Shown here: positions 27,728 through 56,075 of the stretch, piece after piece
How the letters are laid out: each line of letters begins with the position of its first letter
How positions within the stretch are numbered: position 1 is the stretch's first letter
Source of the DNA: Pseudoruegeria sp. HB172150
GTDB lineage: Bacteria > Pseudomonadota > Alphaproteobacteria > Rhodobacterales > Rhodobacteraceae
Assembly: GCF_013184805.1 (NCBI RefSeq)
Contig: NZ_JAATNG010000005.1
Location: 124,001-188,000, forward strand
Direction of reading: 5' to 3'
Length of the DNA stretch: 64,000 nucleotides
Translations under genes and position numbers: made by a program
The notes under the pieces: model-generated
The model's database searches: none
Told to the model about the DNA's origin: nothing
Seen by the model: only the letters and a program-made list of their open reading frames with translations

Positions 27728-27758
27728 CCGGCGCGATGATCGTCCGCACGATGAAGAT

Positions 27759-28412
27759 ATGCTGATCCAGCCCCGCCCCGGAGAGGCCACGCAACAGGCC
27801 GCCCATGACCAGGTGTACCGCCACCTGCGCACGCGCATCATGCATGGCGAACTTGAGCCGGGAACGGCGCTGACCCTGCGCGGGATCGGCAAGGAATACG
27901 GCGTGTCGATGACGCCTGCGCGCGAGGCCGTGCGGCGGCTGGCGGCGGAGGGCGCGCTGACGCTGTCCTCTTCAGGTCGGGTGTCGACGCCGGAACTGTC
28001 GAACGAGCGGATCGAGGAACTGGCCGCGCTGCGCGCGCTGATCGAGACGGAGCTGGCAAGCCGTGCCCTGCCGCGTGCACATATCGCGCTGATCGACCGG
28101 CTGAACGCGATCAACGGCCAGATCGCCGAGGCGGTCGCGAAGCAGGATGCTGTGGCCTATATCCGCACTAACCTGGAGTTCCACCGAACGCTGTATCTGC
28201 GGGCGCAGGCGCCGGCGATGCTGGCCCTGGTCGAGACTGTGTGGTTGCAGCTTGGCCCGACGATGCGCAAGCTTTACGGGCGGTTGCAGCGGACCGAGGT
28301 ACCGCAACAGCACAAGCTGATCGTTGCTGCGCTTAGGGCCGGAGACGAGCCGGGGCTTCGGCTGTCTGTAAGGACCGACGTGACCCAGGGCCTCAGGATG
28401 CTGGTGGCATGA
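27759..28412 (+). CDS. GntR-family transcriptional regulator, FCD (FadR-type) subfamily
   Basis: This 217-residue protein has an N-terminal winged helix (about residues 10-75: ALTLRGIGKEYGVSMTPAREAVRRLAAEGAL) and an all-helical FCD ligand-binding domain (about 80-215). FadR-type regulators usually respond to organic acids or acyl-CoA compounds. It overlaps the downstream DHFR-like gene by four bases. No obvious operator could be identified near it. Whether it recognises the palindromes of the TCA operons is unknown. Confidence 0.88.
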   Translation: MLIQPRPGEATQQAAHDQVYRHLRTRIMHGELEPGTALTLRGIGKEYGVSMTPAREAVRRLAAEGALTLSSSGRVSTPELSNERIEELAALRALIETELASRALPRAHIALIDRLNAINGQIAEAVAKQDAVAYIRTNLEFHRTLYLRAQAPAMLALVETVWLQLGPTMRKLYGRLQRTEVPQQHKLIVAALRAGDEPGLRLSVRTDVTQGLRMLVA

Positions 28413-33119: not shown

Positions 33120-34673
<1,554 letters not shown>

Positions 34674-34682
34674 GTCGGTCTC

Positions 34683-37637
34683 TTACCCTTCGATTCCCAG
34701 CGCGGAGTTCACCAGCGCCTGCTGTTCTGCCTTGTGTTGCGATGCTAGCCCGGTGGCCGGGGAGGCCGAGGCATGGCGGCCGGCATATTGCGGACGGCTG
34801 TGCTTGGCGCCGATGCGAGTCAGCACCCATTCGATGTTCGGTTCGATGAACGTCCAGGCGCCCTGATTCTTGGGCTCTTCCTGACACCAGATCACCTCCG
34901 CATCCTTGAAGCGTTCGAGCTCCTTGACGAGGCTAAGCGCCGGGAAGGGATAGAATTGTTCCAGACGCATCAGGTAGACGTCATCGATGCCTTCGGCGTC
35001 CCGCTTTTCGAGGAGGTCGTAATAGACTTTGCCGGAGGAGATGACGACGCGTTTGATCTTGTCGTCGGGGGCAAGCTGCAGGTCGGAGTGGCCCTTTTCG
35101 GCATCGTCCCAAAGCACCCGGTGGAAGGAGCTGCCGGTGGTGAAATCCTCGGCATCCGAGATCGCGAACTTGTGGCGCAAGAGCGACTTTGGTGTCATCA
35201 GAACCAACGGCTTGCGGTAGGAGCGGTGCAACTGGCGACGCAGGATGTGGAAATAGTTCGCCGGCGTCGAGCAGTTGGCGACGATCCAGTTATCCTCGGC
35301 GCACATCTGCAGGAAGCGTTCGAGGCGGGCAGAGCTATGCTCCGGCCCCTGACCCTCAAAGCCATGAGGCAGCAGCATGACGAGGCCCGACATCCGCAGC
35401 CATTTGCGTTCGCCGGACGAGATGAACTGGTCGAACATGATCTGCGCGCCGTTGGCGAAATCGCCGAACTGCGCCTCCCACATCACCAGCGCGTTGGGTT
35501 CGGCTAGCGAATAGCCGTATTCGAAGCCCAGCACCGCATATTCCGAAAGCATCGAGTCGATGACCTCGTATTGTGCTTGCCCATCGCGGACATGGTTCAG
35601 CGGGTAGAAACGTTCCTCATTCTCTTGGCTGATGAAGCCGGAATGCCGCTGGCTAAAGGTGCCGCGGGTAGAGTCCTGGCCAGCCAGTCGGACCGGATAG
35701 CCCTCGGTCAGCAGCGAGCCGAAGGCCAGCGCCTCGGCAGTAGCCCAGTCAAAGCCCTTGCCGGTGCTGAACATCTCGGCCTTTGCTTCCAAAAGCCGTC
35801 CGACGGTGCGGTGCAGCGGGAAGCCTTCCGGTGTTGTGGTCAGCGCCTTGCCGACTTGTTCCAGCGTTTCCGGCGCGATGGCGGTTTCGCCCCGCTGGTA
35901 TTTCTCTCCCTCGCGGTCGAGATGGCTCCAGCGCCCGTCGAGCCAGTCGGCCTTGTTCGGGCGGTATTCCTTACCGGCCTCGAATTCCTCGTTGAGGTGC
36001 GCCTGGAACGACGCCTTCAGATCCTCGATCTCTCCCTCGGGGATCAGGCCGTCTTTTACCAACCGGTCAGTGTAAAGAGACAAGGTTGTTTTGTGGCCCT
36101 TGATCTTCTTGTACATGATCGGGTTGGTGAACATCGGCTCGTCGCCTTCGTTGTGACCGAAGCGGCGGTAGCAGAAGATGTCGATCACAACGTCCTTGTG
36201 GAATTTCTGTCGGAATTCGGTGGCGACCTTGGCGGCGTGAACCACGGCCTCCGGGTCATCGCCGTTGACGTGGAAGATCGGCGCTTCGACCATCAGCGCG
36301 ATATCGGTCGGGTAGGGGGACGAGCGCGAGAAATGCGGCGCCGTCGTAAAGCCGATCTGGTTGTTTACGACGATATGGATCGTGCCCCCGGTACGGTGGC
36401 CGCGCAAGCCTGAGAGGCCGAAGCATTCCGCTACCACGCCCTGACCCGCAAAGGCCGCGTCGCCATGCAGCAGAATCGGCAAAACCGCCGTACGGTCGCG
36501 GTCGTTCAACTGGTCCTGCTTGGCGCGGGCCTTGCCGATCACCACGGGGTTCACTGCCTCGAGGTGCGAGGGGTTCGCCGTAAGCGACAGGTGCACGGTG
36601 TTGCCGTCGAATTCACGGTCGGAGGAGGCGCCGAGGTGATATTTCACGTCGCCGGAACCATCGACATCCTCGGGCTTGAAGCTGCCGCCCTGGAACTCGT
36701 TGAAGATAGCCTTGTAGGGTTTCTGCAACACGTTCGCCAATACGCTCAGCCGGCCACGGTGCGGCATGCCGATGACAATCTCTTTGACGCCGAGATTGCC
36801 GCCCCGTTTGATGATCTGTTCCATCGCGGGGATCAGCGCCTCGCCACCATCAAGGCCGAACCGCTTCGTTCCCATATATTTGACGTGCAAGAATTTTTCG
36901 AAGCCTTCGGCCTCGACCAGCTTGTTCAGGATCGCGCGGCGGCCTTCGCGGGTGAACTGGATTTCCTTGCCGAAACCTTCGATCCGTTCCTTCAGCCAGG
37001 AAGCTTCTTCCGGATTGGAGATGTGCATGTACTGCAGCGCGAAGGTGCCGCAATAGGTGCGCTTCACGATCGCCAGGATCTCGCGCAGAGAGCCGAATTC
37101 CAGTCCCAGCACGTTGTCGAGGAAAATCGGACGGTCATAATCGGATTCGGTGAAGCCATACGATTTCGGATCAAGCTCGGGGTGCGGGGTTTCCTCGCGC
37201 ATGCCGAGCGGATCGAGTTCGGCGACGAGGTGGCCACGGATCCGGTAGGCGCGGATCAGCATCAGCGCGCGCAGGCTGTCCAGTACGGCGCGCTTGATCG
37301 CTTCGTCTGAGACCTTGACGCCTTTGTCTTCGGCCTTGGCGGCGATTTTCTTGCCGGCATCCTTCAGCTCTTCCTTGGCCCATTGGCCGTCGAGCGCGGA
37401 TGTCAGCTCGTCAGACGGTGCCGGCGGCCAGTCAAGTCGTGCCCAACTGGGGCCCGCGGCCTCCTGCTTCACCGCGACTTCGTCGTCGCCCATCTGCTTG
37501 AAGAAGTCGGCCCAGGCCGCATCGACCGAGCCCGGGTCGTTGGCATAGCGGGCGTAAAGCTGTTCAAGGTAATCTGCGTTATGCCCCTGTAGGAAGCTGG
37601 AGGCATGGAAAAGGTCGTTTGGGCTTTGTTCGGTCAT
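34683..37637 (-). CDS. sucA: 2-Oxoglutarate dehydrogenase E1
   Basis: This 984-residue protein is full length for OdhA/SucA. The conserved N-terminus includes NADYLEQLYARYANDP. The thiamine-diphosphate region has GMPHRGRLSVLANVL and HGDAAFAGQGVVAE; FCYRRFGHNEGDEP and the C-terminal transketolase-type region (YPVRLAGQDSTRGTFSQRH) are also present. It decarboxylates 2-oxoglutarate and passes succinyl to the E2 lipoyl arms. The region of 110 bp to the DUF805 gene upstream has no clear promoter. Confidence 0.97.
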   Translation of the reverse strand: MTEQSPNDLFHASSFLQGHNADYLEQLYARYANDPGSVDAAWADFFKQMGDDEVAVKQEAAGPSWARLDWPPAPSDELTSALDGQWAKEELKDAGKKIAAKAEDKGVKVSDEAIKRAVLDSLRALMLIRAYRIRGHLVAELDPLGMREETPHPELDPKSYGFTESDYDRPIFLDNVLGLEFGSLREILAIVKRTYCGTFALQYMHISNPEEASWLKERIEGFGKEIQFTREGRRAILNKLVEAEGFEKFLHVKYMGTKRFGLDGGEALIPAMEQIIKRGGNLGVKEIVIGMPHRGRLSVLANVLQKPYKAIFNEFQGGSFKPEDVDGSGDVKYHLGASSDREFDGNTVHLSLTANPSHLEAVNPVVIGKARAKQDQLNDRDRTAVLPILLHGDAAFAGQGVVAECFGLSGLRGHRTGGTIHIVVNNQIGFTTAPHFSRSSPYPTDIALMVEAPIFHVNGDDPEAVVHAAKVATEFRQKFHKDVVIDIFCYRRFGHNEGDEPMFTNPIMYKKIKGHKTTLSLYTDRLVKDGLIPEGEIEDLKASFQAHLNEEFEAGKEYRPNKADWLDGRWSHLDREGEKYQRGETAIAPETLEQVGKALTTTPEGFPLHRTVGRLLEAKAEMFSTGKGFDWATAEALAFGSLLTEGYPVRLAGQDSTRGTFSQRHSGFISQENEERFYPLNHVRDGQAQYEVIDSMLSEYAVLGFEYGYSLAEPNALVMWEAQFGDFANGAQIMFDQFISSGERKWLRMSGLVMLLPHGFEGQGPEHSSARLERFLQMCAEDNWIVANCSTPANYFHILRRQLHRSYRKPLVLMTPKSLLRHKFAISDAEDFTTGSSFHRVLWDDAEKGHSDLQLAPDDKIKRVVISSGKVYYDLLEKRDAEGIDDVYLMRLEQFYPFPALSLVKELERFKDAEVIWCQEEPKNQGAWTFIEPNIEWVLTRIGAKHSRPQYAGRHASASPATGLASQHKAEQQALVNSALGIEG

Positions 37638-38794: not shown

Positions 38795-39676
38795 TCATCC
38801 GATGGCCTTCAGTACCGCCTCGCCCAGGCCCGCGGGGCTTTCGGCGACGACGATCCCGGCGCATTGCATCGCCTCGATCTTGTCCTCGGCACCGCCCTTG
38901 CCGCCGGCGACAATGGCGCCGGCATGGCCCATGCGGCGACCCGGAGGGGCGGTACGGCCGGCGATGAAGCCGGCAGTCGGCTTCCAACGGCCGTTTTTCT
39001 TTTCGTCGGCGAGGAACTGGGCGGCCTCTTCCTCGGCGGAGCCGCCGATTTCGCCGATCATGATGATCGCCTCGGTCTCGTCATCGGCAAGGAACCATTC
39101 GAGTACGTCAATATGCTCGGTTCCCTTGATGGGGTCACCGCCGATGCCGACGCAGGTCGACTGGCCGAGCCCGACGTCGGTTGTCTGTTTTACAGCCTCG
39201 TAGGTCAGGGTGCCCGAGCGGGAAACGACGCCGACCGAGCCGCGTTTGTGGATGTGGCCGGGCATGATGCCAATCTTGCAGGCGTCGGGCGTGATGACAC
39301 CGGGGCAGTTCGGGCCGATCAGGGTGGTTTTGGAGTTCTCCAGCACCCGTTTGACTTTCATCATATCGAGGACAGGGATGCCCTCGGTAATGCAGACCAC
39401 AAGCGGGATCTCGGCGTCGATGGCTTCGAGGATCGAATCCGCTGCGAATGGGGGCGGGACGTAGATGACGCTGGCATTGGCGCCGGTCTTTTCGACGGCC
39501 TCAAAGCAGGAGTTGAAGACCGGCAGGCCCAGATGCTCCTGCCCGCCCTTGCCGGGGGTCACGCCGCCGACCATCTTGGTGCCGTAGGCGATGGCCTGCT
39601 CGGAGTGGAACGTCCCCTGCGAGCCTGTGAAGCCCTGACAGATGACCTTGGTGTTTTCGTCTACGAGGACTGCCAT
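38795..39676 (-). CDS. sucD: Succinyl-CoA synthetase alpha subunit
   Basis: This 293-residue protein has the CoA-binding Rossmann start [20 protein letters not shown], the [10 protein letters not shown] segment and the phosphorylated His in [16 protein letters not shown] near the C-terminus. It forms the enzyme with SucC and interconverts succinyl-CoA and succinate with nucleotide triphosphate formation. Unlike the usual direct sucC-sucD pair, two small genes lie between sucC and sucD here. Confidence 0.97.
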
Positions 39677-40645: not shown

Positions 40646-41839
40646 TCAGCCCTTGACCGCTTTCACGATCTTCTCGGCGCCGTCCTTCAGGTCGTCCGCC
40701 GCGATCACGTTGAGGCCCGAGCCCGCGATGATCTCCTTGCCCTTCTCGACGTTGGTGCCTTCGAGACGGACCACCAGCGGCACCTGCAGGCCCACTTCCT
40801 TCACAGCTGCAATCACGCCTTCGGCGATGATATCGCAGCGCATGATGCCGCCGAAGATGTTGACGAGTATGCCCTTCACATTCGGGTCCGAGGTGATGAT
40901 CTTGAAAGCCTCTGTCACCTTTTCCTTTGTGGCGCCGCCGCCGACGTCCAGGAAGTTTGCCGGTTCGGCGCCGTACAGCTTGATGATGTCCATCGTCGCC
41001 ATGGCGAGACCGGCGCCGTTTACCATGCAGCCGATTTCACCGTCGAGGGCGATGTAGTTCAGGTCGTGCTTTGAGGCAGCGAGTTCCTTGGGGTCTTCCT
41101 CGGTCTCGTCGCGGAGGCCGACGATATCGGGGTGGCGATACAGAGCGTTGCCGTCGAAACCGGCCTTGCAGTCAAGGCATTTCAGATCGCCGCTGTCGGT
41201 CACGATCAGCGGATTGATCTCGAGCATTTCCATGTCTTTCTCGACAAAGATCTTGTAGAGCGTGCCCATCAGCGCGGCGCATTGCTTGACCTGCTTGCCC
41301 TCCAGCCCAAGCGCGAAGGCGATGCGGCGGCCGTGGAAGCCCTGGTAGCCGACGGCCGGGTCGACGGAGAAGGACAGGATCTTTTCGGGAGTCTTGGCGG
41401 CGACCTCCTCGATGTCCATGCCGCCCTCGGTCGAGCAGACGAAGGAGATGCGCGAGGAACCGCGGTCGACCAGCAGCGCGAGGTAAAGCTCGCGTTCGAT
41501 ATCCGAGCCGTCCTCGATATAGACGCGGTTGACCTGCTTGCCGACGGGGCCTGTCTGATGCGTGACCAATGTGCTGCCGAGCATCCGGTTGGCTTCCTGC
41601 GCGGCTTCCTCGACTGACTTGGCGAGGCGAACGCCACCCTTTTCACCGGCTTCGGTTTCCTTGAAGTGGCCCTTACCGCGGCCGCCCGCGTGGATCTGCG
41701 CCTTCACCACCCAGAGCGGGCCGTCGAGCTCGCCCGCGGCTGTCTTTGCCTCATTGGCGCTCAGCACGACGCGGCCGTCGCTGACCGGAGCCCCGTAGGA
41801 GCGCAGCAGCGCCTTTGCCTGGTACTCATGAATGTTCAT
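40646..41839 (-). CDS. sucC: Succinyl-CoA synthetase beta subunit
   Basis: This 397-residue protein begins [16 protein letters not shown], the highly conserved SucC N-terminus, and has an ATP-grasp fold with [16 protein letters not shown] and the C-terminal [16 protein letters not shown]. Length equals the family norm. The start at 41839 excludes a 20-residue upstream extension that lacks homology. A 33-bp twin palindrome lies 109 bp upstream and is shared with the sdh operon. Confidence 0.97.
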
Positions 41840-41948: not shown

Positions 41949-41981
41949 TTGTGATCACACGCGAAAATCGTGTGATCACAA
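41949..41981. promoter_or_regulatory. Twin palindrome upstream of sucC (TTGTGATCAC-N13-GTGATCACAA)
   Basis: Two TGTGATCACA palindromes have centres 21 bp apart. Including flanks, the 14-bp arms at 41948-41961 and 41969-41982 are perfect inverted copies. It lies 109 bp upstream of the sucC ATG and 179 bp upstream of the divergent esterase gene. The same arrangement occurs upstream of sdhC (50526-50558), with identical arms and spacing. Confidence 0.85.
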
Positions 41982-42101
41982 ATTTGGCGATACGACGCGC
42001 CGGCTAATGAGTCGGGGCTGAGTCGGCGCCGTATTCAGTGCAAAGATAGTCACGCGCGAGTCGCCATAACGCCGGCTGCCGCGCCTGCGAAGGTTTCGTT
42101 G

Positions 42102-42158
42102 ACCGGTCCCGACCGCCCAGCTATCCCTGCGGGCATTATCCTTCGGTCGGGAGCCGGT
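42102..42158 (+). promoter_or_regulatory. 5'-leader hairpin covering the ribosome site of the DUF900-type gene
   Basis: ACCGGTCCCGACCG (42102-42115) is complementary, with one bulged base, to CGGTCGGGAGCCGGT (42144-42158). The GGGAG ribosome site at 42149-42153 lies inside the right arm and the ATG is at 42161. Together with the twin palindrome this accounts for the 321-bp sucC-esterase gap, which contains no gene. Confidence 0.5.
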
Positions 42159-42160
42159 CC

Positions 42161-43528
42161 ATGTGGAAGAAGATATTACTCGTTATCGTGGTTCTGGCTG
42201 TCGGCATCTCCGCCTATTTCATTATCTACCACCCGCCGGTCCGGCTGATGCCGCCGCCGGTGGTCTTCGAACTCGAAGGCGAACGGATCATCGAAGCGGC
42301 GCCGACGCTGGTCGAAGACGACGAGATAGAGATCTTCTACGCCACCAACCGCATGCCCGTCGGCGGATCCTATACTATCGCACCTGACCGGTCGCTGCGG
42401 GTCGGTACAGGGACGCTTCGGATCGGCGAAGAGGGCACGACGCTCGACCAGCTCAAGGAATGGACCACCCGGGGCGATTCCGGCGACCGGCCCTATCTGC
42501 ACCTCGTCGATGTGAACGAGATGGCGGTGCTCGAGGAGGACTCGGACCCTTCGGTCGCGGCAGGCTGGTTCGCACAAATCAATGCCGCCTTGGACGCCAG
42601 TCTCGGCAAGGACATCATGATCTTCATCCACGGTGCCAACACGACCGTGGAACGCGCCGCGGGCCATGCCTCTCAGCTGCAGCACTATTCAGGGCGTGAG
42701 GCCGTGGTCGTGCTGTTCACCTGGCCGACGATGGAGAACTTTCTGCGCTACTTCCGGGATATTCGGAACGCGTCGGACAGCGCCAAGCACCTCGCCCGGC
42801 TGGTCGAGCTGCTTACGAGTCAGACCTCGGCAGAGCGGATCGACATCTTTTCCTACAGCTCGGGCGGTACGGTGGCGAGTGACGGACTGGGCCTGCTGGC
42901 GCGCGAGGATGCAGAGGCGGCCGACAAGCTGGGCGAAGTCGTGCATGTGGCACCGGACGCGGACTTCCAGCAGTTCGTCGAGGACCTGAAGCTGTACGCG
43001 CCGCTGGCGGACAGCGTAACCACAATTCTGAACCTGGGCGACAGTACACTCAGGCTGGCGCAGGTCATCAACCGGGAATCGCGCGCCGGGCGCCCCGACC
43101 TGCGCGAATTGACCGAGGAAGAGGCGGCGTGGATCCTTGAAGCGGCGGACGAGAACCTGCTGGACGTCATACAGATCCGGCCCGAGGACCTGCCCAATGT
43201 GACAACGACGTCGCACACCTTCTGGTATGACAGTTCCTGGGTCGGGAACGACCTGATCCTGAACATCATGCTGGGCATTCCGATCGCGAACCGGGTTCTG
43301 ACAGAAGCGACCGCGCCGAGCGGAACGCGGTACTGGACGTTCCCGCCGGACTATCCCGAGGCATTCGCCGCGGCGCTGGATGCGCTGGCCGCGGAGGTTG
43401 GTGGAGCGACCGGCGGTGACGGCGCAGCGGAGACGAATGCGGATAACGCCGCCGGAGAAGCTGAAGACAGCGACGCCACGGAAACTGAAGCCGAAGATGC
43501 CGCTCCGGAGGCGCCGGCATCGGAGTAG
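42161..43528 (+). CDS. DUF900-type alpha/beta hydrolase, membrane-anchored
   Basis: This 455-residue protein has an N-terminal hydrophobic anchor (KKILLVIVVLAVGISAYFII). It carries the DUF900 features IFYATNRMPVGG, IMIFIHGANTTVERAA and nucleophile region IDIFSYSSGGTVASDG, with a possible acid in HVAPDAD and His in TTSHTFWYD. The C-terminal 60 residues are Ala/Glu/Asp-rich and disordered. It probably sits at the cytoplasmic membrane facing the periplasm. Members of this family are poorly characterised esterases. It is divergent from sucC and convergent with a secreted lipase-like gene only ten bases away. Confidence 0.85.
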   Translation: MWKKILLVIVVLAVGISAYFIIYHPPVRLMPPPVVFELEGERIIEAAPTLVEDDEIEIFYATNRMPVGGSYTIAPDRSLRVGTGTLRIGEEGTTLDQLKEWTTRGDSGDRPYLHLVDVNEMAVLEEDSDPSVAAGWFAQINAALDASLGKDIMIFIHGANTTVERAAGHASQLQHYSGREAVVVLFTWPTMENFLRYFRDIRNASDSAKHLARLVELLTSQTSAERIDIFSYSSGGTVASDGLGLLAREDAEAADKLGEVVHVAPDADFQQFVEDLKLYAPLADSVTTILNLGDSTLRLAQVINRESRAGRPDLRELTEEEAAWILEAADENLLDVIQIRPEDLPNVTTTSHTFWYDSSWVGNDLILNIMLGIPIANRVLTEATAPSGTRYWTFPPDYPEAFAAALDALAAEVGGATGGDGAAETNADNAAGEAEDSDATETEAEDAAPEAPASE

Positions 43529-43538
43529 CCGCCGCCGG

Positions 43539-44333
43539 TCAGATCCGTTCGCGGATCCGCCGGATCAGCGCGCGCCAGTCGGTAAGTTCGTGGTCGAAGG
43601 CGCCGGTCCGCAGAAAGCTGATCACCTGCGCGATGACCATCGGGTTGTTCATCATGAACGTGTGGCTCGTCGGCAGAACGATGTGATCCGTCATGCCTTC
43701 GATTTTGGTGCTTTCGACCGAGACGGTGCCATCATCCTTGCCGGGGATCATCGGCGAGAAGACCGGGTTCAGCGAGACGTTCCCAGCGATAATGCCGAGG
43801 TCGAAATCGATGGGCGGCAGCAGGTTGACGATGCCGTCGGTGCCAAGCTCGGTGCCTGCCGGGCCGGTCAGGATCTCGAACAGGTCGAGCCGCGAAAGCT
43901 TGTCGACCACCTCCGAGCCTTGGTTCGGCGGTGCCAGCATCACGACACGACCCATGTTTTTCGGAGTGTTCAGCGCCAGCCACATGCGGGCAAGGATGCC
44001 GCCCATGGAGTGGGTGACGAAATTGACCGTCTCATCGCCGCATTGCTCGACCGCCTCGTCGACGTATCCGAGCAGATCCTCGATACCTGTTTCTCTCGAC
44101 GGGTAGCCCAGGTTGACGAGGTGGAAGTTCGCGCTTTCGAGCATCTGTTCAAGGACGATCAGCGAGCTGTCGCTGCGACCGAGCCCATGCAGAAGGACGA
44201 CACATTCACGCTCTGGCTGGGTGTCTTGCGCCATGGCCGGCAGAGTCCAGGTAGCGGCGAGAAGTGCCACGAAAAAAGCCGCCAGGCGCTCTGCGCGTCC
44301 GGCGGCCCGTTTTTTCGTCCGTTGGGTGATCAT
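43539..44333 (-). CDS. Secreted lipase-like alpha/beta hydrolase
   Basis: This 264-residue protein has a signal peptide (about 1-36, ending PAMAQ). Motifs are [13 protein letters not shown] for the oxyanion loop, [10 protein letters not shown] for the nucleophile Ser, and a likely Asp in GKDDGTVS and His in [11 protein letters not shown]. It resembles bacterial extracellular triacylglycerol lipase/PGAP1-type enzymes. It ends ten bases from the convergent DUF900-type gene and starts 61 bp after the mdh stop. Confidence 0.86.
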
Positions 44334-44394
44334 GACGGCCCCCTGTTCACTGGCGCCGCACCGGGCAGCGCCTCACACGGGTCGTTGTATCCCC

Positions 44395-45396
<1,002 letters not shown>

Positions 45397-45522
45397 CTAA
45401 GCCCTCGGGATGCGCGGTGCAAGGCGGTGGCGCGGAAGGCACAACCGTATGCGACGGAATGCCGAAAAGGCAGCGCGACAGTAACTGGCTGAGAAACAAA
45501 GAAAAAGAATTGCGAGAAGGGA

Positions 45523-46275
45523 ATGGAGCTTGATCTGGCCTTTTTCGCGCTGGCGGTTCCGGCGGTGCTGTTCGCGGGTGTTTCTAAGGGCGGCTTCGGC
45601 TCTGGCGTGGCCTTTGCCGCGACCCCGATGCTGGCGCTGATTCTTGAACCAGGACAGGCGATTGGCCTGATGCTGCCGCTGTTGATGCTGATGGATCTGG
45701 CGCTGCTGCGGCCCTATTGGCGGCAATGGCACTGGGCATCGGCGCGGGCGCTGATGATCGGCTCGGTTCCTGGTGTGGCGCTTGGTGTCGTGCTGTGGCG
45801 GGTGGCCGATCCCGATATGTTTCGGCTGCTGATCGGGCTGGTCGCGATTGGTTTCGTCGCGTTTCAAGCGGCAACCGCTTCGGGTTTCCTGCAGTCGCCG
45901 GCACGGCCGATGTCAGACGGGGCCGGAATGGGCATGGGCGGTCTTGCCGGGCTGACGAGTTTCATCAGCCATGCAGGGGGTCCGCCCGCTGCGGTCTACC
46001 TGCTGTCGCGAAAGCTGGAGAAAACTGAATACCAGGCCACGACGGTGCTGGTGTTTTGGGCGATCAATATCCTGAAGTTTCCGCCCTATGCGGCTCTGGG
46101 TATCTTTACCCGGCCTTCGTTGATCGCAGACCTGATCCTGGTACCTGTTGCCTTTGCCGGAGTCGCGCTGGGTGTCTGGCTGCACCGGCGCGTGTCGGGG
46201 CGATTGTTCTTCGCCCTGACATATCTGTTCCTGACCTGCGCCGGAGCCAAGTTGATCTGGGACGCGCTGACCTGA
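45523..46275 (+). CDS. TSUP (TauE/SafE) family membrane transporter
   Basis: This 250-residue protein has about seven hydrophobic segments and the TSUP motif GVSKGGFGSGVAFAATPMLAL near residues 18-38, plus ISHAGGPPAAVYLLSRKLEKT in the second half. These proteins export sulfite or sulfoacetate, or move other organic sulfonates. The substrate here is unknown. Its stop faces a small secreted-protein gene seven bases away. Confidence 0.88.
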   Translation: MELDLAFFALAVPAVLFAGVSKGGFGSGVAFAATPMLALILEPGQAIGLMLPLLMLMDLALLRPYWRQWHWASARALMIGSVPGVALGVVLWRVADPDMFRLLIGLVAIGFVAFQAATASGFLQSPARPMSDGAGMGMGGLAGLTSFISHAGGPPAAVYLLSRKLEKTEYQATTVLVFWAINILKFPPYAALGIFTRPSLIADLILVPVAFAGVALGVWLHRRVSGRLFFALTYLFLTCAGAKLIWDALT

Positions 46276-46282
46276 TCGGCTG

Positions 46283-46597
46283 CTAAAGTTGCACACCCGC
46301 CGGTCTCGGCTCCTCGTCCAGACGCTCAAAAGACTGGCCGGAGGCGACGAGGCAGGTCGTTCCGTCCGGCATGGTCACCGTGATCGTCCAAGTGCCGGTT
46401 TCGGTCGATGCGAAGATCTCGACAAGCGCGTTGTTGGCACCCATGCCAACGGATTGCCGGCTTTCACCGTAGCCGTCCGCCAGCCGCTGGACGACGGTTT
46501 CCCGGTCGGCGCAATTGCGGCTTTGGGCCGTGGCTTGCTCGACGGCAAGGACGCTGGCGCCGACACCGAGAGAGAGTGCAAGAAACATGCGTTTCAT
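46283..46597 (-). CDS. Hypothetical small secreted protein
   Basis: This 104-residue protein has a signal peptide (MKRMFLALSLGVGASVLA, cleavage near ATA) and a short mature part with two Cys, which may form a disulfide (NCADRETVVQRLADGYGES and TTCLVASGQSF). No family is named with confidence; similar small proteins occur in Rhodobacteraceae. It is convergent with the TSUP gene. Confidence 0.7.
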   Translation of the reverse strand: MKRMFLALSLGVGASVLAVEQATAQSRNCADRETVVQRLADGYGESRQSVGMGANNALVEIFASTETGTWTITVTMPDGTTCLVASGQSFERLDEEPRPAGVQL

Positions 46598-46917
46598 TCT
46601 GTCTTTCCCTTTCTCTGCCGGGCGCTTCCCGTCCTGGCCTGCCGCATACCGGCGGTCGGGCGCACCCTTGATTCAAAATATTGCCCGCCCATCGAAACCT
46701 GTTGTGCGGTGGTTTGCCTTTCCGGCCCTCCCCGGCTGCGGGCGTGGGAAAAGACTGGGCGCCAAACCCGAAAAAAATGGTTAACGCAGCGCGCGCCGTG
46801 CCAGTCAAATAGGTAAATGCCTGAATTGTCGGTACTTCTGCGGCGCGGCACATCGCCCCTTGTCTGGCGCTCGTGGCCGTGGTCGGTTTCTTCAGGTCAG
46901 CAACGAAGGCGAGAATC
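46598..46917. other. Divergent intergenic region upstream of mcl2
   Basis: This 320-bp stretch contains no convincing gene. The part just upstream of mcl2 (about 46765-46825) is relatively AT-rich and may hold its promoter. The TTGTGATCAC twin palindrome of the suc and sdh operons is not present here. Confidence 0.5.
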
Positions 46918-47778
46918 ATGCCCGACGCAGCGCGCCCGTACCGCTCGGTTCTCTATATCCCCGGCTCAAAGGAACGCGCGCTGGACAAGGTGCGGGGGTT
47001 GAAGGCAGACGCAATCATCTTCGATCTTGAGGATGCCGTTGCCGCTGACGAGAAGGTGAACGCCCGTTCACTGCTGGTGCGGGAGCTGGAAAAGGGCGGT
47101 TACGGACAGCGCGGGCGGATCGTGCGGGTGAACGCACTGGATACAGAGTGGGGGCAGGAAGACGTCGCCGCTGTGGTGTCTGCGAAACCGGATGCGATCC
47201 TGCTGCCCAAAGTGGGGTCCGCCGCCGATCTGGACGAACTGGCCGGGCTGGCGGGCGATATCGACCTGTGGGCGATGATCGAGACGCCGCTTGGCATTCT
47301 GCATGCCGAGGAAATCGCCGCGCACCCGTACCTGACCGGGATGGTGATGGGCACCAATGACCTCGCGAAGGACCTTAATTGCCGGACGCGGCCCGACCGG
47401 ATGCCGCTGATCACCAGCCTGCAAGTCGCTCTTCTCGCGGCGCGGGCGCATGGGGTGATTATCGTCGACGGGGTTTACAACGCCTTCAAGGACGAGGACG
47501 GGCTGCGTGCCGAATGTGAACAGGGCCGCGACATGGGGTTCGACGGCAAGACGCTTATCCATCCGGCGCAGATCGACATCGCGAACGCCGCTTTCGCGCC
47601 AAGTGAAGAAGAGATCGACCTTGCGCAGCGCCAGATCGACGCCTTCGAAGCTGCAGAGGCCGAGGGGCAGGGCGTGGCCGTGGTCGACGGACGCATTGTC
47701 GAGAACCTTCACGTTGTCACTGCACGCGCTACCCTGGCGCGGGCCGCCGCAATCACAGCCCTGGAGATGGCGCAATGA
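46918..47778 (+). CDS. mcl2: HpcH/HpaI-type CoA ester lyase, probably (3S)-malyl-CoA thioesterase
   Basis: This 286-residue protein belongs to the CitE-like/HpcH family. Conserved parts are RSVLYIPGSKERALDKV, DAIIFDLEDAVAADEK, the metal-binding Glu in MIETPLGILHAEEIA and GFDGKTLIHPAQI. In Rhodobacter sphaeroides the Mcl2 homologue hydrolyses (S)-malyl-CoA to malate in the ethylmalonyl-CoA pathway, and its gene is also near mch and the TCA genes. The same setting here supports that assignment. The ATG at 46918 has GAAGGCGAG upstream; a start 15 codons earlier is less likely. It overlaps the NnrU-like gene by four bases. Confidence 0.87.
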   Translation: MPDAARPYRSVLYIPGSKERALDKVRGLKADAIIFDLEDAVAADEKVNARSLLVRELEKGGYGQRGRIVRVNALDTEWGQEDVAAVVSAKPDAILLPKVGSAADLDELAGLAGDIDLWAMIETPLGILHAEEIAAHPYLTGMVMGTNDLAKDLNCRTRPDRMPLITSLQVALLAARAHGVIIVDGVYNAFKDEDGLRAECEQGRDMGFDGKTLIHPAQIDIANAAFAPSEEEIDLAQRQIDAFEAAEAEGQGVAVVDGRIVENLHVVTARATLARAAAITALEMAQ

Positions 47779-48335
47779 TCCTTCTTGTCCTTGGTATCGC
47801 CCTGTGGTGGGCGGCGCACCTGTTCAAACGCCTTGCTCCCGGGCCGCGCGCGGCAATGGAGACGAAGATGGGCAACGGCGCAAAGGGCGTCGTGGCGCTG
47901 GCGCTGTTGATCTCTGTCGTGCTCATGGTGATCGGTTTCCGGACCAGCGATTTCATCGACGTCTACTACCCGCCAAGCTGGGGCATTCACCTGAACAACC
48001 TGCTGATGCTCATCGCGGTGGTGCTGTTCGGGCTGGGGAATTCCAAGAGCCGGCTGCGCGGTAAGATGCGGCATCCGATGCTGACGGGTATGCTGACTTG
48101 GGCGGTGGCGCACCTGCTGGTGAATGGCGACCTTTCGTCAGTACTGCTTTTCGGGCTGCTGGGTGTCTGGGCCATCGTCGAGATGCTGGTGATCAATGGG
48201 GCCGAGCGGGATTATTCCTCCTGGGAGGGCGGTAGCCTCGCTGGGGATATCCGGCTGGCGGTCATTACTCTGGTGGTCTTTGCCCTGATCGCTGGGATAC
48301 ATACTTGGCTGGGTTACTACCCCTTCCCGCAATAG
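47775..48335 (+). CDS. NnrU-family membrane protein
   Basis: This 186-residue protein has about five hydrophobic segments. Segments such as WWAAHLFKRLAPGPR near the N-terminus and GKMRHPMLTGMLTWAVAHLLVNGDL, with conserved His residues, are typical of NnrU. NnrU-type proteins are linked to nitrite and nitric oxide metabolism in denitrifiers, but copies near mcl2 and mch occur without denitrification genes. The role is uncertain. The start overlaps mcl2. Confidence 0.88.
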   Translation: MILLVLGIALWWAAHLFKRLAPGPRAAMETKMGNGAKGVVALALLISVVLMVIGFRTSDFIDVYYPPSWGIHLNNLLMLIAVVLFGLGNSKSRLRGKMRHPMLTGMLTWAVAHLLVNGDLSSVLLFGLLGVWAIVEMLVINGAERDYSSWEGGSLAGDIRLAVITLVVFALIAGIHTWLGYYPFPQ

Positions 48336-48343
48336 AGAGTGAC

Positions 48344-48547
48344 ATGAAAGCCTACCGACTGCTTACCGAAGACGACACCTCCGCCTTTTGCCACAAGGTC
48401 ACGCTGGCGCTGTCGAAGGGGTGGGAGCTATATGGCTCGCCCGCCTATGGGTTCGATGCCGAGACCGGCAAGATGCGCTGCGCGCAGGCGGTGGTGAAGG
48501 AGGTTGAGGGCGAATACTCGCCCGACGTGAAGCTGGGGCAGCTTTAG
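48344..48547 (+). CDS. DUF1737 small protein
   Basis: This 67-residue protein (MKAYRLLTEDDTSAFCHKVT with LSKGWELYGSPAYGFD) matches the DUF1737 pattern. It is cytoplasmic and its function is unknown. The ATG at 48344 lies eight bases after the NnrU-like stop with GAGAG upstream, and mch follows two bases after its stop. Confidence 0.85.
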   Translation: MKAYRLLTEDDTSAFCHKVTLALSKGWELYGSPAYGFDAETGKMRCAQAVVKEVEGEYSPDVKLGQL

Positions 48548-48549
48548 TC

Positions 48550-49578
48550 ATGGCGAAGACCTTTGCCGGGCGGTTCTTCGAGGATTACGCACCGGGACAG
48601 GTCATCGAGCATGCGGTGCCGCGGACTTTGTCGGGGGGCGAGCGGGCGCTTTATCACGCGCTCTACCCGGCGCGGCATGCGCTGCAGTCTTCGGACGAGT
48701 TCGCGCGGGCCTGCGGGCTGAAGGCCTCGCCTTTCGACGATCTGATCCTGTTTCATACGGTGTTCGGCAAGACGGTGCCGGATGTGTCGCTGAATGCGGT
48801 GGCGAACCTTGGGTATGCCGGGGGGCGGTGGCTGGGGCTGGCTTATCCCGGCGATACGCTGACGGCGGTGTCGGAGGTGATCGGGGTCAAGCAGAACTCC
48901 AGCGGCAAGTCGGGCGTGGTCTGGGTTCGGACCACGGGGCGGAACCAGCGGGGAGAGGCGGTGCTGGAATACGTCCGCTGGGTGATGGTGCGGAAGCGGG
49001 ACGTGGAGGCGCCGGCGCCGGAGACGGTGGTGCCGGAGCTGGCTGAGGCTGTGGCGCCCGCGGATCTGGTGGTGCCGGCGGGGCTGGATTTTTCCGCCTA
49101 TGATTTCGGGCTGGCGGGGGAGCCGCATCGGTGGGGGGATTACGAGGTCGGCGAGAGGATCGACCACGTCGACGGGGTGACCGTCGAGGAGGCCGAGCAC
49201 ATGCTGGCGACGCGGCTGTGGCAGAACACGGCCAAGGTCCATTTCGATGCGACCCAGAGGCCGGACGGGAAGCGGCTGATCTATGGGGGGCACGTGATCT
49301 CGCTGGCCAGGGCGCTGAGCTTCAACGGGCTGGCCAATGCCCAGCTGATCGTGGGGCTGAACGGGGGGGCGCATGCCAATCCGTGCTTCGCGGGGGATAC
49401 GGTGAGGGCCTGGTCGGAGGTGCTGGACAAGGCGGAGACTGGGGCGCCGGGGGTGGGGGCGATACGGCTGCGGCTGGTGGCGACGAAGGGTGAGGCGTTC
49501 GGGCTGAAGGGGGCGGACGGGAAGTACCTGCCGGAGGTTCTGCTGGACCTCGATTATTGGGCCCTGATGCCCCTCTGA
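48550..49578 (+). CDS. mch: Mesaconyl-CoA hydratase (MaoC-type, double hot-dog)
   Basis: This 342-residue protein has the features of the Mch family: GRFFEDYAPGQVIEHAVPR at the start and a second MaoC-like half around YEVGERIDHVDGVTVEEAEH with NTAKVHFDATQRPDGKRLIYGG. Mch converts mesaconyl-CoA to beta-methylmalyl-CoA in the ethylmalonyl-CoA pathway of acetate assimilation. It is directly preceded by mcl2, NnrU-like and DUF1737 genes, as in Rhodobacter. Coding sequence in the 3' half is strongly G-rich on the plus strand. Confidence 0.92.
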   Translation: MAKTFAGRFFEDYAPGQVIEHAVPRTLSGGERALYHALYPARHALQSSDEFARACGLKASPFDDLILFHTVFGKTVPDVSLNAVANLGYAGGRWLGLAYPGDTLTAVSEVIGVKQNSSGKSGVVWVRTTGRNQRGEAVLEYVRWVMVRKRDVEAPAPETVVPELAEAVAPADLVVPAGLDFSAYDFGLAGEPHRWGDYEVGERIDHVDGVTVEEAEHMLATRLWQNTAKVHFDATQRPDGKRLIYGGHVISLARALSFNGLANAQLIVGLNGGAHANPCFAGDTVRAWSEVLDKAETGAPGVGAIRLRLVATKGEAFGLKGADGKYLPEVLLDLDYWALMPL

Positions 49579-49601
49579 AAAGGGGCGTCCCCATGGGGAC
49601 G
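49569..49601 (+). terminator. Stem-loops at the end of mch
   Basis: GCCCCT (49569-49574) pairs with AGGGGC (49581-49586) around the stop codon, and a 16-bp perfect palindrome CGTCCCCATGGGGACG follows at 49586-49601. No T-run is seen. The two hairpins overlap at one base and could be alternatives. Confidence 0.5.
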
Positions 49602-49732
49602 GGGGGTCAAGTGATTGATTTCAGGCGTGTTAGCGCTAACCTACGTGTGGGGACACACTGCGGCGGGATCGTCCCCGGATACGCCCGGTTCACCCTTGAC
49701 CGAAAGCCTTGTGCTGCCCTTAATCTTGCAAC

Positions 49733-50476
49733 ATGAAACGGCTTCTTGCACTCGTTCTGGCGCTTGGACTGGCGATACCCGCGCAGGCGGCGCGGCTGCG
49801 CGACGGGTCGCATGAATACCTGGCCGCCAACCTGCTGGCGATCTTCTATCACGAGTTCGGCCACGCCCTGATCGACATCCTGAAACTGCCGATATTCGGG
49901 CAGGAGGAAGACGCCGCAGACGTGTTGTCGGTGTTCATGATCGACGCGCTGTTCGATGGCGAGACGGCAGTGGATATGGCCTATCACACCGCCTACGGTT
50001 TCCTTGGCGAGGCCAAGAACAGTTCGGGCGACGAACCCGCCTACTGGGATGTGCACGGGCCGGACCTGCAGCGGTATTATACGTTCGTCTGCCTATTCTA
50101 TGGCGCCGATCCGGATAACCGCAGGCGCGTTGCCGAAGATCTGGAATTGCCGGATGCAAGGCGCATGACCTGTGTCGATGAATACGAAAAGGCGGCGGAG
50201 AGCTGGGGGCCGGTCGTCACGTCGCTGTACGACAACGGGCCGGGGCGCAGTATCCGGTTTCTGACCGATCATCATGTGGACGAGTACGGCCGTTTCACCG
50301 CCAAGGTCCTGCAGGAAGAAGTCGACGCGATGAACACCAAGCTATCGCTGCCCAAGCGGATGCTTGTCCGTGTCGAGGAGTGCGGAACCGCCAACGCATT
50401 CTATGACGCCAAGACGCGCGAGATCATCATATGCGCCGAATTCGCCCGCTACCTGGCGGATCTGGAACCGCGTTAG
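49733..50476 (+). CDS. DUF4344 putative zinc metallopeptidase, secreted
   Basis: This 247-residue protein has a signal peptide (MKRLLALVLALGLAIPAQA) and the zinc motif FYHEFGHALID (His40, Glu41, His44) followed by a DAAD pair as possible third ligand region. A second part has CGTANAFYDAKTREIIICAEF, also typical of DUF4344. It may be an active periplasmic protease, but no substrate is known. It is followed by the sdh promoter region. Confidence 0.86.
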   Translation: MKRLLALVLALGLAIPAQAARLRDGSHEYLAANLLAIFYHEFGHALIDILKLPIFGQEEDAADVLSVFMIDALFDGETAVDMAYHTAYGFLGEAKNSSGDEPAYWDVHGPDLQRYYTFVCLFYGADPDNRRRVAEDLELPDARRMTCVDEYEKAAESWGPVVTSLYDNGPGRSIRFLTDHHVDEYGRFTAKVLQEEVDAMNTKLSLPKRMLVRVEECGTANAFYDAKTREIIICAEFARYLADLEPR

Positions 50477-50525
50477 GATCGCGGATTCGGGTAACAATGG
50501 ATTGTGGGAGGCTGAAGGGCGAATT

Positions 50526-50558
50526 TTGTGATCACGCGCTAAATAGCTGTGATCACAA
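50526..50558. promoter_or_regulatory. Twin palindrome upstream of sdhC (TTGTGATCAC-N13-GTGATCACAA)
   Basis: Arms at 50526-50535 and 50549-50558 are the same 10-mers, in the same order and spacing, as those upstream of sucC. Palindrome centres are again 21 bp apart. The site lies 128 bp before the sdhC ATG. A single TTGTGATCACAC also occurs inside sdhD (51392-51403), possibly by chance. Confidence 0.85.
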
Positions 50559-50686: not shown

Positions 50687-51076
50687 ATGCCAGACATGAA
50701 ACCCGTGGAACGGCCACTCTCCCCCTTCATGCTGGGGCAGTATTACAGGCTCCAGATGACATCGGTCAGTTCGCTTCTGACGCGGATCACCGGCAACGCG
50801 CTGATCGCGCCATTCATCCTTGGTGTCTGGTGGCTGCTGGCCGCGGCGACCGGCCCGGACAGTTTCGCCTGCATCAACTGGCTGGTCACGTCATGGATCG
50901 GCGACATCATTTTCGCCCTGTCGTGCTGGGCAGTCTGGTACCACTATCTGGCGGGACTACGGCACTTCGTGTTCGACGCGGGCCGCATGCTGGAGGTCGA
51001 AACAGCCGAAAAACTGGGCTGGGGCTGCGTGATAGGCTCTGTCGTCCTGACCATCATCACAATCATCATCGTCTGA
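50687..51076 (+). CDS. sdhC: Succinate dehydrogenase cytochrome b556 subunit
   Basis: This 129-residue protein has three transmembrane segments. The conserved RPLSPFMLGQYYRLQMTSVSS-like start (about residues 7-26) and the heme-ligand region around WYHYLAGLRHFVFD near residue 84 are present. It anchors the SdhAB dimer to the membrane and passes electrons to ubiquinone. It is the first gene of the sdh operon, eleven bases before sdhD. Confidence 0.95.
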   Translation: MPDMKPVERPLSPFMLGQYYRLQMTSVSSLLTRITGNALIAPFILGVWWLLAAATGPDSFACINWLVTSWIGDIIFALSCWAVWYHYLAGLRHFVFDAGRMLEVETAEKLGWGCVIGSVVLTIITIIIV

Positions 51077-51087
51077 CGGAGGCCGCC

Positions 51088-51459
51088 ATGCGTTATCTGA
51101 CCGCCCGCAAGCGCGCCGAAGGCAAAGGCGCTTCGCATACCGGAACCGAGCATCACTGGTACATGACCGTCAGCGGCGCCGGGCTGGCGTTCCTGATGCC
51201 GGTTTTCATGTTCATCTTCGGCAGCGCCCTTGGCGGCACGCACGAAGAAGTCGTGGCGACCTTCGGGCGCCCGTTCCCGGCGATCATCACCGGCCTGGTG
51301 CTGGTCGTGGGTCTTCAGCATTTCATCAAGGGCTTCACCATGATGATCGAGGACTACACCCAGGGAACCGCTCGCAAGGTGCTTGAGATCCTTGTGATCA
51401 CACTCTGCTACTTCCTGATGGCCGCGGGTCTCTTCGCGCTGGCCAAACTTGCACTCTGA
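51088..51459 (+). CDS. sdhD: Succinate dehydrogenase membrane anchor subunit
   Basis: This 123-residue protein has three transmembrane segments and the pattern [20 protein letters not shown] typical of alphaproteobacterial SdhD near residue 7. His residues in the second helix region ([15 protein letters not shown]) are placed for heme or quinone binding. The ATG at 51088 has GGAGG upstream. It is followed ten bases later by sdhA. Confidence 0.93.
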
Positions 51460-51469
51460 GGAAAAACAC

Positions 51470-53278
51470 ATGGCCGCTTACGACTACGAGACGCATGATT
51501 ATGACGTCGTGGTGATTGGCGCCGGCGGGTCCGGGCTTCGGGCGACGCTGGGCATGGCCGAGCAGGGGCTGCGCACCGCCTGCGTGACCAAGGTCTTCCC
51601 GACCCGCTCTCACACCGTCGCGGCGCAGGGCGGCATCGCCGCCAGCCTCGGCAACATGGGGCCGGACCACTGGCAGTGGCACATGTACGACACCGTGAAG
51701 GGGTCGGACTGGCTGGGCGATACCGACGCGATGGAATACCTCGCGCGGTCCGCCCCCGCCGCCGTCTACGAGCTGGAACATTACGGCGTGCCGTTCTCTC
51801 GCACCGAGGAAGGCAAGATCTATCAGCGGCCGTTCGGCGGCCACACGACCGAGTTCGGCGAAGGCCCCCCGGTGCAGCGCACCTGCGCCGCCGCCGACCG
51901 GACCGGCCATGCGATCCTGCACACTCTGTACGGCCAGTCGCTGAAAAACAACGCCGAGTTCTACATCGAGTATTTCGCGATCGACCTGATCATGTCGGAA
52001 GACGGCGTGTGCCAGGGCGTTCTGGCGTGGAAGCTGGACGACGGTACGATGCATGTCTTCAACGCGAAGATGACGGTGCTGGCGACGGGCGGCTACGGCC
52101 GCGCCTATTTCTCGGCGACTTCGGCGCATACCTGCACCGGCGACGGCGGCGGGATGGTGGCGCGGGCCGGGCTGCCGCTGCAGGACATGGAGTTCGTGCA
52201 GTTCCACCCGACCGGGATTTACGGTTCGGGCTGCCTGATCACCGAGGGCGCGCGCGGCGAGGGCGGCTATCTGACCAATTCGGAAGGCGAGCGGTTCATG
52301 GAACGCTATGCTCCGACCTACAAGGACCTTGCGTCGCGCGACGTGGTTTCGCGCTGCATGACGATGGAGATCCGCGAGGGCCGTGGCGTTGGCCCGGACA
52401 AGGACCATATCCACCTGCACCTGAACCACCTGCCGCCGGAAACGCTGCATGAACGGCTGCCGGGGATTTCGGAATCGGCGCGCATCTTTGCCGGTGTCGA
52501 CCTGACGAAAGAGCCGATCCCGGTGCTGCCGACGGTGCATTACAACATGGGCGGCATTCCGACGAACTACTGGGGCGAGGTGCTGAACGCCGATGCAGAG
52601 AACCCGGAGCGGATCGCGCCGGGGCTTATGGCGGTTGGCGAGGCGGGCTGCGCCTCTGTCCACGGGGCGAACCGGCTGGGGTCGAACTCGCTGATCGACC
52701 TCGTGGTGTTCGGCCGCGCCGCGGCGATCCGCGCCGGCGAGGTGGTCGATGCGGCGGCGTCCCCAGCGGAGGCGAACAAGGCGTCTATCGACAAGGCGCT
52801 GGACCGGTTCGACCATTACCGCAACGCCGATGGCGGTACCCCGACGGCGGATCTGCGCGACGAGATGCAGCGCACGATGCAGGCGGATGCGGCGGTGTTC
52901 CGCACTGACAAGACGCTCGCCGAGGGTGTCGAGAAGATGTACGCGGTCGCCGACAAGATGGCGGACCTGAAGGTGACGGACCGGTCGCTGGTCTGGAACT
53001 CGGACCTGATGGAGACGCTGGAGCTGACCAACCTGATGCCGAACGCGCTGACGACGATCGTCGGGGCCGAAGCGCGGAAGGAGTCGCGCGGAGCGCATGC
53101 GCATGAGGATTACCCGGACCGCGACGACAAGACCTGGCGCAAGCACACGCTGAGCTGGGTCGGCGCGGATAACCGGGTGACGCTGGACTACCGGCCGGTG
53201 CATCTGGATCCGCTGACGAAGGCGAAGGAAGGCGGTATCGAGCTGAAGAAGATCGCGCCCAAGGCGCGGGTCTACTGA
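51470..53278 (+). CDS. sdhA: Succinate dehydrogenase flavoprotein subunit
   Basis: This 602-residue protein has the FAD motif [20 protein letters not shown], the covalently flavinylated His48 in [11 protein letters not shown], the [20 protein letters not shown] segment and active-site [17 protein letters not shown] near the C-terminus. It oxidises succinate to fumarate. Start ATG at 51470 has GAGGAAAA upstream. Unusually for many bacteria, three genes lie between sdhA and sdhB. Confidence 0.97.
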
Positions 53279-55292: not shown

Positions 55293-56075
55293 ATGGTCCA
55301 ACTCACGCTTCCGAAAAACTCCCGCATCCGGACGGGCAATACCTGGCCGAAGCCCGAGAGCGCGACCAACATCCGCGAGTTCAAGATCTATCGCTGGAAC
55401 CCCGATGACGGAGAGAACCCGCGCGTCGACACCTATTTCGTCGACATGGACACATGCGGGCCGATGGTTCTGGACGCGCTGATCAAGATCAAGAACGAGA
55501 TCGACCCGACGCTGACCTTCCGCCGATCCTGCCGCGAGGGGATCTGCGGATCCTGCGCGATGAACATCGACGGGATCAACACGCTGGCCTGCATCTACGG
55601 CATGGACGAGATCAGCACGCCGGTGGTCAAGATCTACCCGCTGCCGCACATGTCGGTGGTCAAGGACCTGATCCCGGACCTGACGCATTTCTACGCCCAG
55701 CATGCCAGCATCATGCCGTGGCTGGAGACCAAGACGAACCGGCCGCAGAAGGAGTGGCGCCAGTCCATCGAGGACCGCAAGAAGCTGGATGGCCTTTACG
55801 AATGCGTGATGTGCGCGTCCTGCTCCACCGCCTGCCCGAGCTACTGGTGGAACTCGGACCGCTACCTTGGCCCCGCCGCGCTGCTGCACGCGTATCGCTG
55901 GATCATCGACAGCCGCGACGAGGCCACGGGCGAGCGGCTGGACGATCTGGAAGATCCGTTCAAGCTGTATCGCTGCCACACGATCATGAACTGCGCCAAG
56001 ACCTGCCCCAAGGGGCTGAACCCGGCGAAGGCGATTGCAGAGATCAAGCGGATGCTGGTGAACCGGGTGGTCTGA
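55293..56075 (+). CDS. sdhB: Succinate dehydrogenase iron-sulfur subunit
   Basis: This 260-residue protein has the 2Fe-2S ligands in [18 protein letters not shown] and CIYG, the first 4Fe-4S motif [16 protein letters not shown] and the last cluster motif [17 protein letters not shown]. All cysteines expected are present. It passes electrons from SdhA to the membrane subunits. It has an AAGGAGA ribosome site. It is separated from sdhA by 2.0 kb that hold three unrelated genes. Confidence 0.97.

Follow-up and report, generated by a model that had tools for sequence, protein, structure and literature searches.

The window, by which we mean the whole 64-kb stretch of DNA analysed here, carries two clusters of TCA-cycle genes on opposite strands. 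On the minus strand lies a sucCD-sucAB cluster, headed by sucC (40646-41839; PF08442 and PF00549; start codon placed from the N-terminal sequence MNIHEYQ) and continued by sucD (38795-39676; PF02629 and PF00549), sucA, encoding 2-oxoglutarate dehydrogenase E1 (34683-37637; PF00676 and PF16870), and sucB, encoding a dihydrolipoamide acyltransferase (33120-34673; PF00198 and PF00364). The plus strand holds the sdh operon, with sdhC as its first gene (50687-51076; PF01127, E=1.7e-19), sdhA (51449-53278; PF00890 and PF02910), and sdhB (55293-56075; PF13085 plus 4Fe-4S families). The same 33-bp element, TTGTGATCAC-N13-GTGATCACAA, precedes the first gene of each cluster and by exact match has two copies in the window: at 41949-41981 on the minus strand, upstream of sucC, and at 50526-50558 on the plus strand, upstream of sdhC. 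Each is a predicted twin operator made of two GTGATCAC palindromes whose centres are 21 bp apart; all 20 arm bases are identical between the two loci, and the 13-bp spacers read ACGCGAAAATCGT and GCGCTAAATAGCT, that of the sucC copy being A/T-rich. The distance from the twin site to the ATG is 109 bp for sucC (41839, minus strand) and 128 bp for sdhC (50687). At the former locus the element sits between the start of sucC and that of a divergent ORF at 42161.

All of these measures (coordinates, arms, 13-bp spacers, centre distance, and distances to the start codons) agree with a preliminary description of this DNA, which also held that chance recurrence of such an element was very unlikely. 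None of 100 shuffled versions of the window contained the 33-bp element with up to three mismatches allowed, and the genome of 5,055,836 bases has two copies at the same tolerance, both in the window. Exact GTGATCAC occurs five times in the window, four times as an arm of a twin site and once unpaired at 51394. Our genome-wide survey of single sites used the 12-mer TTGTGATCACAA, and thus covers GTGATCAC with those flanks only; with at most one mismatch it returned 11 places, three of them within the twin sites. The other eight were considered as further targets; six of them contain exact GTGATCAC, all in open frames (L003, L005, L006, L007, L009, and L013), and two have a mismatch within the core (L004 and L008). 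No site with one mismatch or fewer occurs in the 400 bp before three ORFs, those at 46873 (HpcH/HpaI aldolase), 45523, and 43380; before the ORF for mesaconyl-CoA hydratase at 48550 there is a single site, with one mismatch, at -361. A consensus scan found no sigma-70-type promoter around either twin site of the window, and the position of the sites relative to the core promoter is therefore uncertain.

Conservation was assessed in 149 genomes from the window's order, every one of them from the same family. The preliminary description had counted absence of the element from close relatives as a reason to abandon it; instead, exact GTGATCAC pairs (spacing 3 to 33) are present in 147 of the 149, while a control pattern matched in a single genome (G097). 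Two exact pairs per genome is the usual number (110 genomes); 12 genomes have one, 25 have three or more, and two have none. The form with the 13-bp spacer, at three mismatches or fewer, was recovered from 146 of the 149, and G133, which is without it, has a 12-bp pair adjoining sucC. Among the 75 pairs listed, from 37 genomes, the spacing is 13 bp in 65 and 12 bp in five, the rest being spaced by 5, 5, 8, 19, and 28 bp. Among 20 listed genomes of the 25 with three or more pairs, the third stands at the regulator's own gene (discussed below) in G015, G114, and G112; of five further extra pairs inspected, four lie within open frames (L413, L417, L426, and L430) and one, with 12-bp spacing, between frames (L419). 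Upstream of sucC in G046 there are three palindromes in 21-bp steps. Exact pairs are rare outside the family: in a wider alphaproteobacterial draw they were found in 29 of 385 genomes, five of these belonging to the window's own family, and with mixed spacing.

A second sample consisted of at least 119 public contig stretches that were chosen by exact match to the element; they are mostly labelled Rhodobacteraceae or Rhodobacterales or with genera that belong there, and the label is a different or broader one for five (L036, L045, L074, L106, and L122). The 119 stretches listed contain 131 paired sites with spacers of 11-15 bp, of which 91 precede sucC, 33 precede sdhC, and seven lie elsewhere; a sucC or sdhC site was seen in 116 of the 119. 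Five of the seven other pairs are within about 320 bases of a stretch end, with their target out of view, and the remaining two are a pair before sucA (L120) and an assembly duplicate next to NN (L114).

The distribution of the element bears on whether it is a binding site at all. As a whole it also forms an inverted repeat, and a hairpin is possible, which could speak for a DNA or RNA structure (cruciform, hairpin, or terminator) or for a dispersed repeat. We regard either as scarcely credible. The copy number is two here, and 110 of the 149 relatives likewise have exactly two, for the most part at the same pair of genes; the outer bases vary one-sidedly, so that the cross-arm pair is broken (e.g., in G023 and G099); and the sucC element, standing between the divergent starts of sucC and ORF 42161, is not where a terminator would be expected. 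An intrinsic terminator or structured RNA was rejected, no GC-rich stem with a run of T behind it being found around either site of the window, and a REP-like dispersed repeat was rejected on the count of two copies in 5.06 Mb at three mismatches or fewer.

Nearly every sucC spacer is different (89 distinct among the 91 listed), and they are A/T-rich, with a GC fraction of 0.38 vs 0.51 in the 60 bp upstream. AAA or TTT occurs in 83 of the 91 listed, the maximum in 200 shuffles being 53; for the sdhC spacers of 13 bp the corresponding values are 22 of the 30 listed, with a shuffled maximum of 20 in 200, and a GC fraction of 0.43 vs 0.52. The site ends 107-113 bp before the sucC start in 63 of the 91 cases listed (range 96-157) and 114-204 bp before the sdhC start in the 33 cases listed, and conserved A/T blocks lie between site and gene. 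Such an architecture would suit a pair of dimers that sit upstream of the core promoter on the same side of the helix, joined by DNA that can bend.

A candidate for the binding protein is encoded in the same window, in spite of the earlier statement that no adjacent regulator gene is seen. The gene at 27759-28412 (plus strand), 13.5 kb from the sucC site, specifies a protein of 217 aa with a GntR winged helix (PF00392, E=4.7e-15) and an FCD domain (PF07729, E=2.5e-19), and is likely an AkgR-type regulator and the protein that binds the twin sites. A search of its own genome for FCD domains gave 20 matches, of which this is the one in the window. Its closest solved sequence relative is McbR (PDB 4p9f; E=1.3e-20 over residues 18-211), likewise of the GntR family, but this is another regulator and the sequence similarity is remote. 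Orthologues with 66-92% identity are present in 146 of the 149 order genomes, this genome included, whereas G023, G110, and G141 have weaker matches only. Among 190 genomes of the class, searched with E up to 1e-30, identities of at least 79% were confined to the three family members, the other matches falling at 34-41%. For the 36 listed genomes with the orthologue, the distance from the gene to a pair with 12-13 bp spacing is at most 25 kb in 22; in six the gene is farther away on the same contig, and in eight it is on another contig.

G110 and G141 are the only ones of the 149 order genomes without an exact pair, and both also lack the orthologue; they retain sucC (78-79% identity), and the 4.2 kb around it contains no GTGATCAC. 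Hypergeometric arithmetic puts this overlap of pair loss and orthologue loss at 3/11026, a value uncorrected for relatedness and obtained for this FCD regulator alone of the 20. The exception is G023, in whose 80-contig assembly pairs are present and no orthologue was found. G110 has no pair but does have a GntR protein of 48-49% identity, whose aligned first codon is preceded by GTGATCAC at a distance of 32 bp, so that the joint loss of regulator and site is not perfectly clean. Outside the family, six of eight pair loci that were opened belong to other families: at two of them the paired GTGATCAC adjoins a GntR gene, lying upstream of it in L214 (27% identity) and behind it in L237 (39%), and at the other four (L213, L235, L238, and L240) no such GntR gene was seen by eye.

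The preliminary description could name no known regulator for the site. One does exist, namely AkgR, which we take to be RSP_0981 and which, according to a study of 2015, is said to activate TCA genes directly. Motif, regulator class, and activator role are all drawn from papers and refer to Rhodobacter sphaeroides: GTGATCAC is a reported motif of AkgR, a GntR-family transcriptional activator of that species (PMC6365646), and RSP_0981, of the GntR family, is predicted to control RSP_0967-6, RSP_0974-6, and RSP_0965-62, i.e., succinyl-CoA synthetase, succinate dehydrogenase, and 2-oxoglutarate dehydrogenase (PMC4344238). The present locus resembles that system. Four exact copies in two pairs match the motif; the sites precede sucC and sdhC, and the AkgR targets are sucCD-sucAB-lpd and sdh; the regulators share the GntR family, the FCD domain having been seen in the window protein; and RSP_0981 is numbered close to RSP_0962 to RSP_0976, much as the GntR gene here lies near the sucC site. 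Judged by operator motif, target genes, protein family, and genomic surroundings, the regulator of the window is likely of the AkgR type. A possible difference from the R. sphaeroides system lies in three features that we describe from sequence: twin sites spaced by 12-13 bp, an A-tract in the spacer, and a palindrome at the start of the regulator gene itself. A further difference is that the window's regulator gene is without an exact palindrome.

The same palindrome has been met in a second system. PS417_07240, a GntR-like protein from a deoxyribonate cluster of Pseudomonas with 32% identity to AkgR, has GTGATCAC as its proposed operator at -47 to -40 of its own gene (PMC6365646); it thus shares the palindrome close upstream of the regulator gene, but differs in its targets (deoxyribonate oxidation), in the single palindrome described, and in belonging to another class of Proteobacteria. 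A literature search at the level of paper listings and the first lines of abstracts produced no other regulator for GTGATCAC. At that level, with the main AkgR paper outside its scope, it likewise showed no account of the spacing rule for twin sites, of the A-tract in the spacer, or of the own-start palindrome.

The AkgR-type regulator is not the only conceivable binder: a protein of the CRP/FNR type might recognise the element in its place, or RSP_1663 (CceR), which is of LacI type. The halves TGTGA and TCACA resemble CRP half-sites. CRP and FNR operators are arranged as TGTGA-N6-TCACA or TTGAT-N4-ATCAA; here the half-sites abut, with neither the six bases required between CRP half-sites nor an N4 gap, and on this consensus a CRP/FNR operator was rejected. 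CceR parallels the AkgR regulon in its predicted control of succinate dehydrogenase together with other central carbon genes of R. sphaeroides, and both it and NtrC are predicted to act on sdh, but it is of the LacI and not of the GntR family (PMC4344238). Judged from the distribution of the GntR regulator across genomes, a different binder is in our view very improbable: the two genomes without pairs are also without the GntR orthologue, and the palindrome recurs at the GntR gene itself in most orthologues.

The latter point emerged when the upstream DNA of all 146 orthologues was compared. In 112 of them GTGATCAC falls within the interval from -120 to +21 relative to the aligned first codon, and a reversed control word was found in the same region of none of the 146. 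The order TTGAC-N10..16-GTGATCAC-N6..14-start applies to 109 of the 146. A stricter anchor could place 138 of the 146; sites are present in 106 of these, 110 in all, and 95 of the 110 stop 8-10 bp short of the first in-frame start. The consensus before 102 such sites consists of gaTTGACg, nine free bases, ttT, and the palindrome. In G147, whose regulator gene stands well away from the suc cluster, the same place is taken by two palindromes with 5 bp between them. The relatives' palindrome would cover the expected -10, which is a repressor position, and would leave little room for a leader; given this position over the -10 of its own TTGAC promoter, the regulator probably represses itself in most relatives. 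An exact operator is missing at the regulator gene in 34 of the 146 orthologues, and the window's is one of these: a promoter/operator remnant, TTGACC-N12-GTCCGCAC-N9-ATG, was recognised at 27724-27758 (plus strand) by comparison of sequence and register. GTCCGCAC has three mismatches in the palindrome, and its register matches that of TTGAC-N-GTGATCAC-N8..10-ATG in the relatives, which suggests a decayed operator. With these three mismatches, self-control through that site has probably been lost in this genome.

Since the own-gene site lies over the expected -10, the same regulator might also act as a repressor on the twin sites, holding down sucC and sdhC until relieved by a TCA intermediate. 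Many proteins of the GntR/FCD group, to which the regulator belongs, are repressors relieved in this manner. The twin sites, however, end far upstream of the genes (107-113 bp for most listed sucC cases, 114-204 bp for sdhC) as against the 8-10 bp typical of the own gene, and AkgR has been named a transcriptional activator (PMC6365646). Repression of the two clusters is therefore unlikely, though less so than a different binder.

We thus interpret the twin elements, with a probability of roughly 0.9, as operators through which the AkgR-type GntR regulator encoded at 27759-28412 activates the suc and sdh clusters. Each GTGATCAC palindrome would take one regulator dimer, and the centre distance of 21 bp, equal to two helical turns, would bring two neighbouring dimers onto the same side of the double helix, with the A-tract spacer between them serving as a bendable segment. 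Paired in this way, and placed upstream of the weak core promoters of sucC and sdhC, the dimers would help RNA polymerase, and succinyl-CoA synthetase/2-oxoglutarate dehydrogenase and succinate dehydrogenase would be raised together, presumably in response to a ligand. In most relatives the single palindrome over the expected -10 of the regulator's TTGAC promoter would bring about self-repression, whereas in this genome that third site, at the regulator gene, would have decayed. The preliminary proposal of an operator at which a regulator docks as two paired dimers to govern two TCA operons has been strengthened as to its operator and its targets, by the conservation at the same two promoters, the 12-13 bp spacing, and the co-occurrence with the GntR/FCD gene; the pairing of dimers is the part that we infer.

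A further, tentative reading, to which we give somewhat less than even odds, is that the number of in-register palindromes sets the role of the protein. Twin or triple sites phased at 21 bp, with an A-tract hinge, would be bound by a dimer of dimers and lead to activation of the TCA genes, and at the promoter of the regulator gene itself, which is probably leaderless, one dimer alone, covering the -10, would repress; the result would be a self-limiting TCA controller conserved in the family, its self-control arm being sometimes lost, as here.

The AkgR-type system is already known in outline, and with the GTGATCAC motif, a GntR regulator, and the sucC and sdh targets all as in the papers, what we describe is probably the AkgR regulon in a new genome. 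The near-fixed spacing of two turns with A-tract spacers, the triple array of G046, and the single operator over the regulator's expected -10 are possibly new. If the spacing rule and the own-gene palindrome are indeed unpublished, they provide a testable model of one GntR/FCD protein acting both as activator and as repressor. A previously unexplained element can now be assigned to a named type of regulator whose gene lies in the same window, and a rule follows for reading the TCA regulon in the genomes of most family members: sucC and sdhC are each preceded by two GTGATCAC at a distance of about 21 bp, and usually one GTGATCAC stands just before the regulator start. Judged from sequence comparison, an AkgR-type regulator most likely docks at the paired palindrome, and two clusters of energy metabolism are probably placed under its joint control throughout the family.

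The gene for the AkgR-type GntR/FCD regulator, the presumed binder of the twin site as judged from sequence, retains in its promoter and operator region (window 27724-27758) the TTGAC and the spacing of its relatives, while the position of the palindrome reads GTCCGCAC, with three mismatches. The exact palindrome is also absent at the regulator gene of the sole congener sampled (G087, L154).

Two records that bear the names of other lineages, Nocardioides marinus (L106, JAHVJD010000010.1) and Robiginitomaculum (L045), hold a sucC that is 84-85% identical to that of the window, with the twin site ahead of each; these assemblies are probably mislabelled or contaminated. In another record (L114, 1642-2060) the twin site is duplicated, the copies lying 390 bp apart with the same spacers in both, and this looks like an assembly join because the shared stretch of the second copy begins immediately after NN. 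By sequence search, the sucC match in genome G147 (L278) shows one in-frame TGA.

Before sucC of genome G046 (L281, 2801-2850) stand three GTGATCAC palindromes in exact 21-bp steps, an array that carries the two-turn spacing on to a third palindrome. A GTGATCAC pair with 12-bp spacing lies between open frames in genome G126 (L419, 1501-1528); the frame about 150 bp past it resembles a membrane protein and is a possible extra target. Finally, a single, AT-rich record has the twin site ahead of sucA (L120, 596-624), 137 bp from the sucA open frame, and thus a separate copy for the sucAB genes there.
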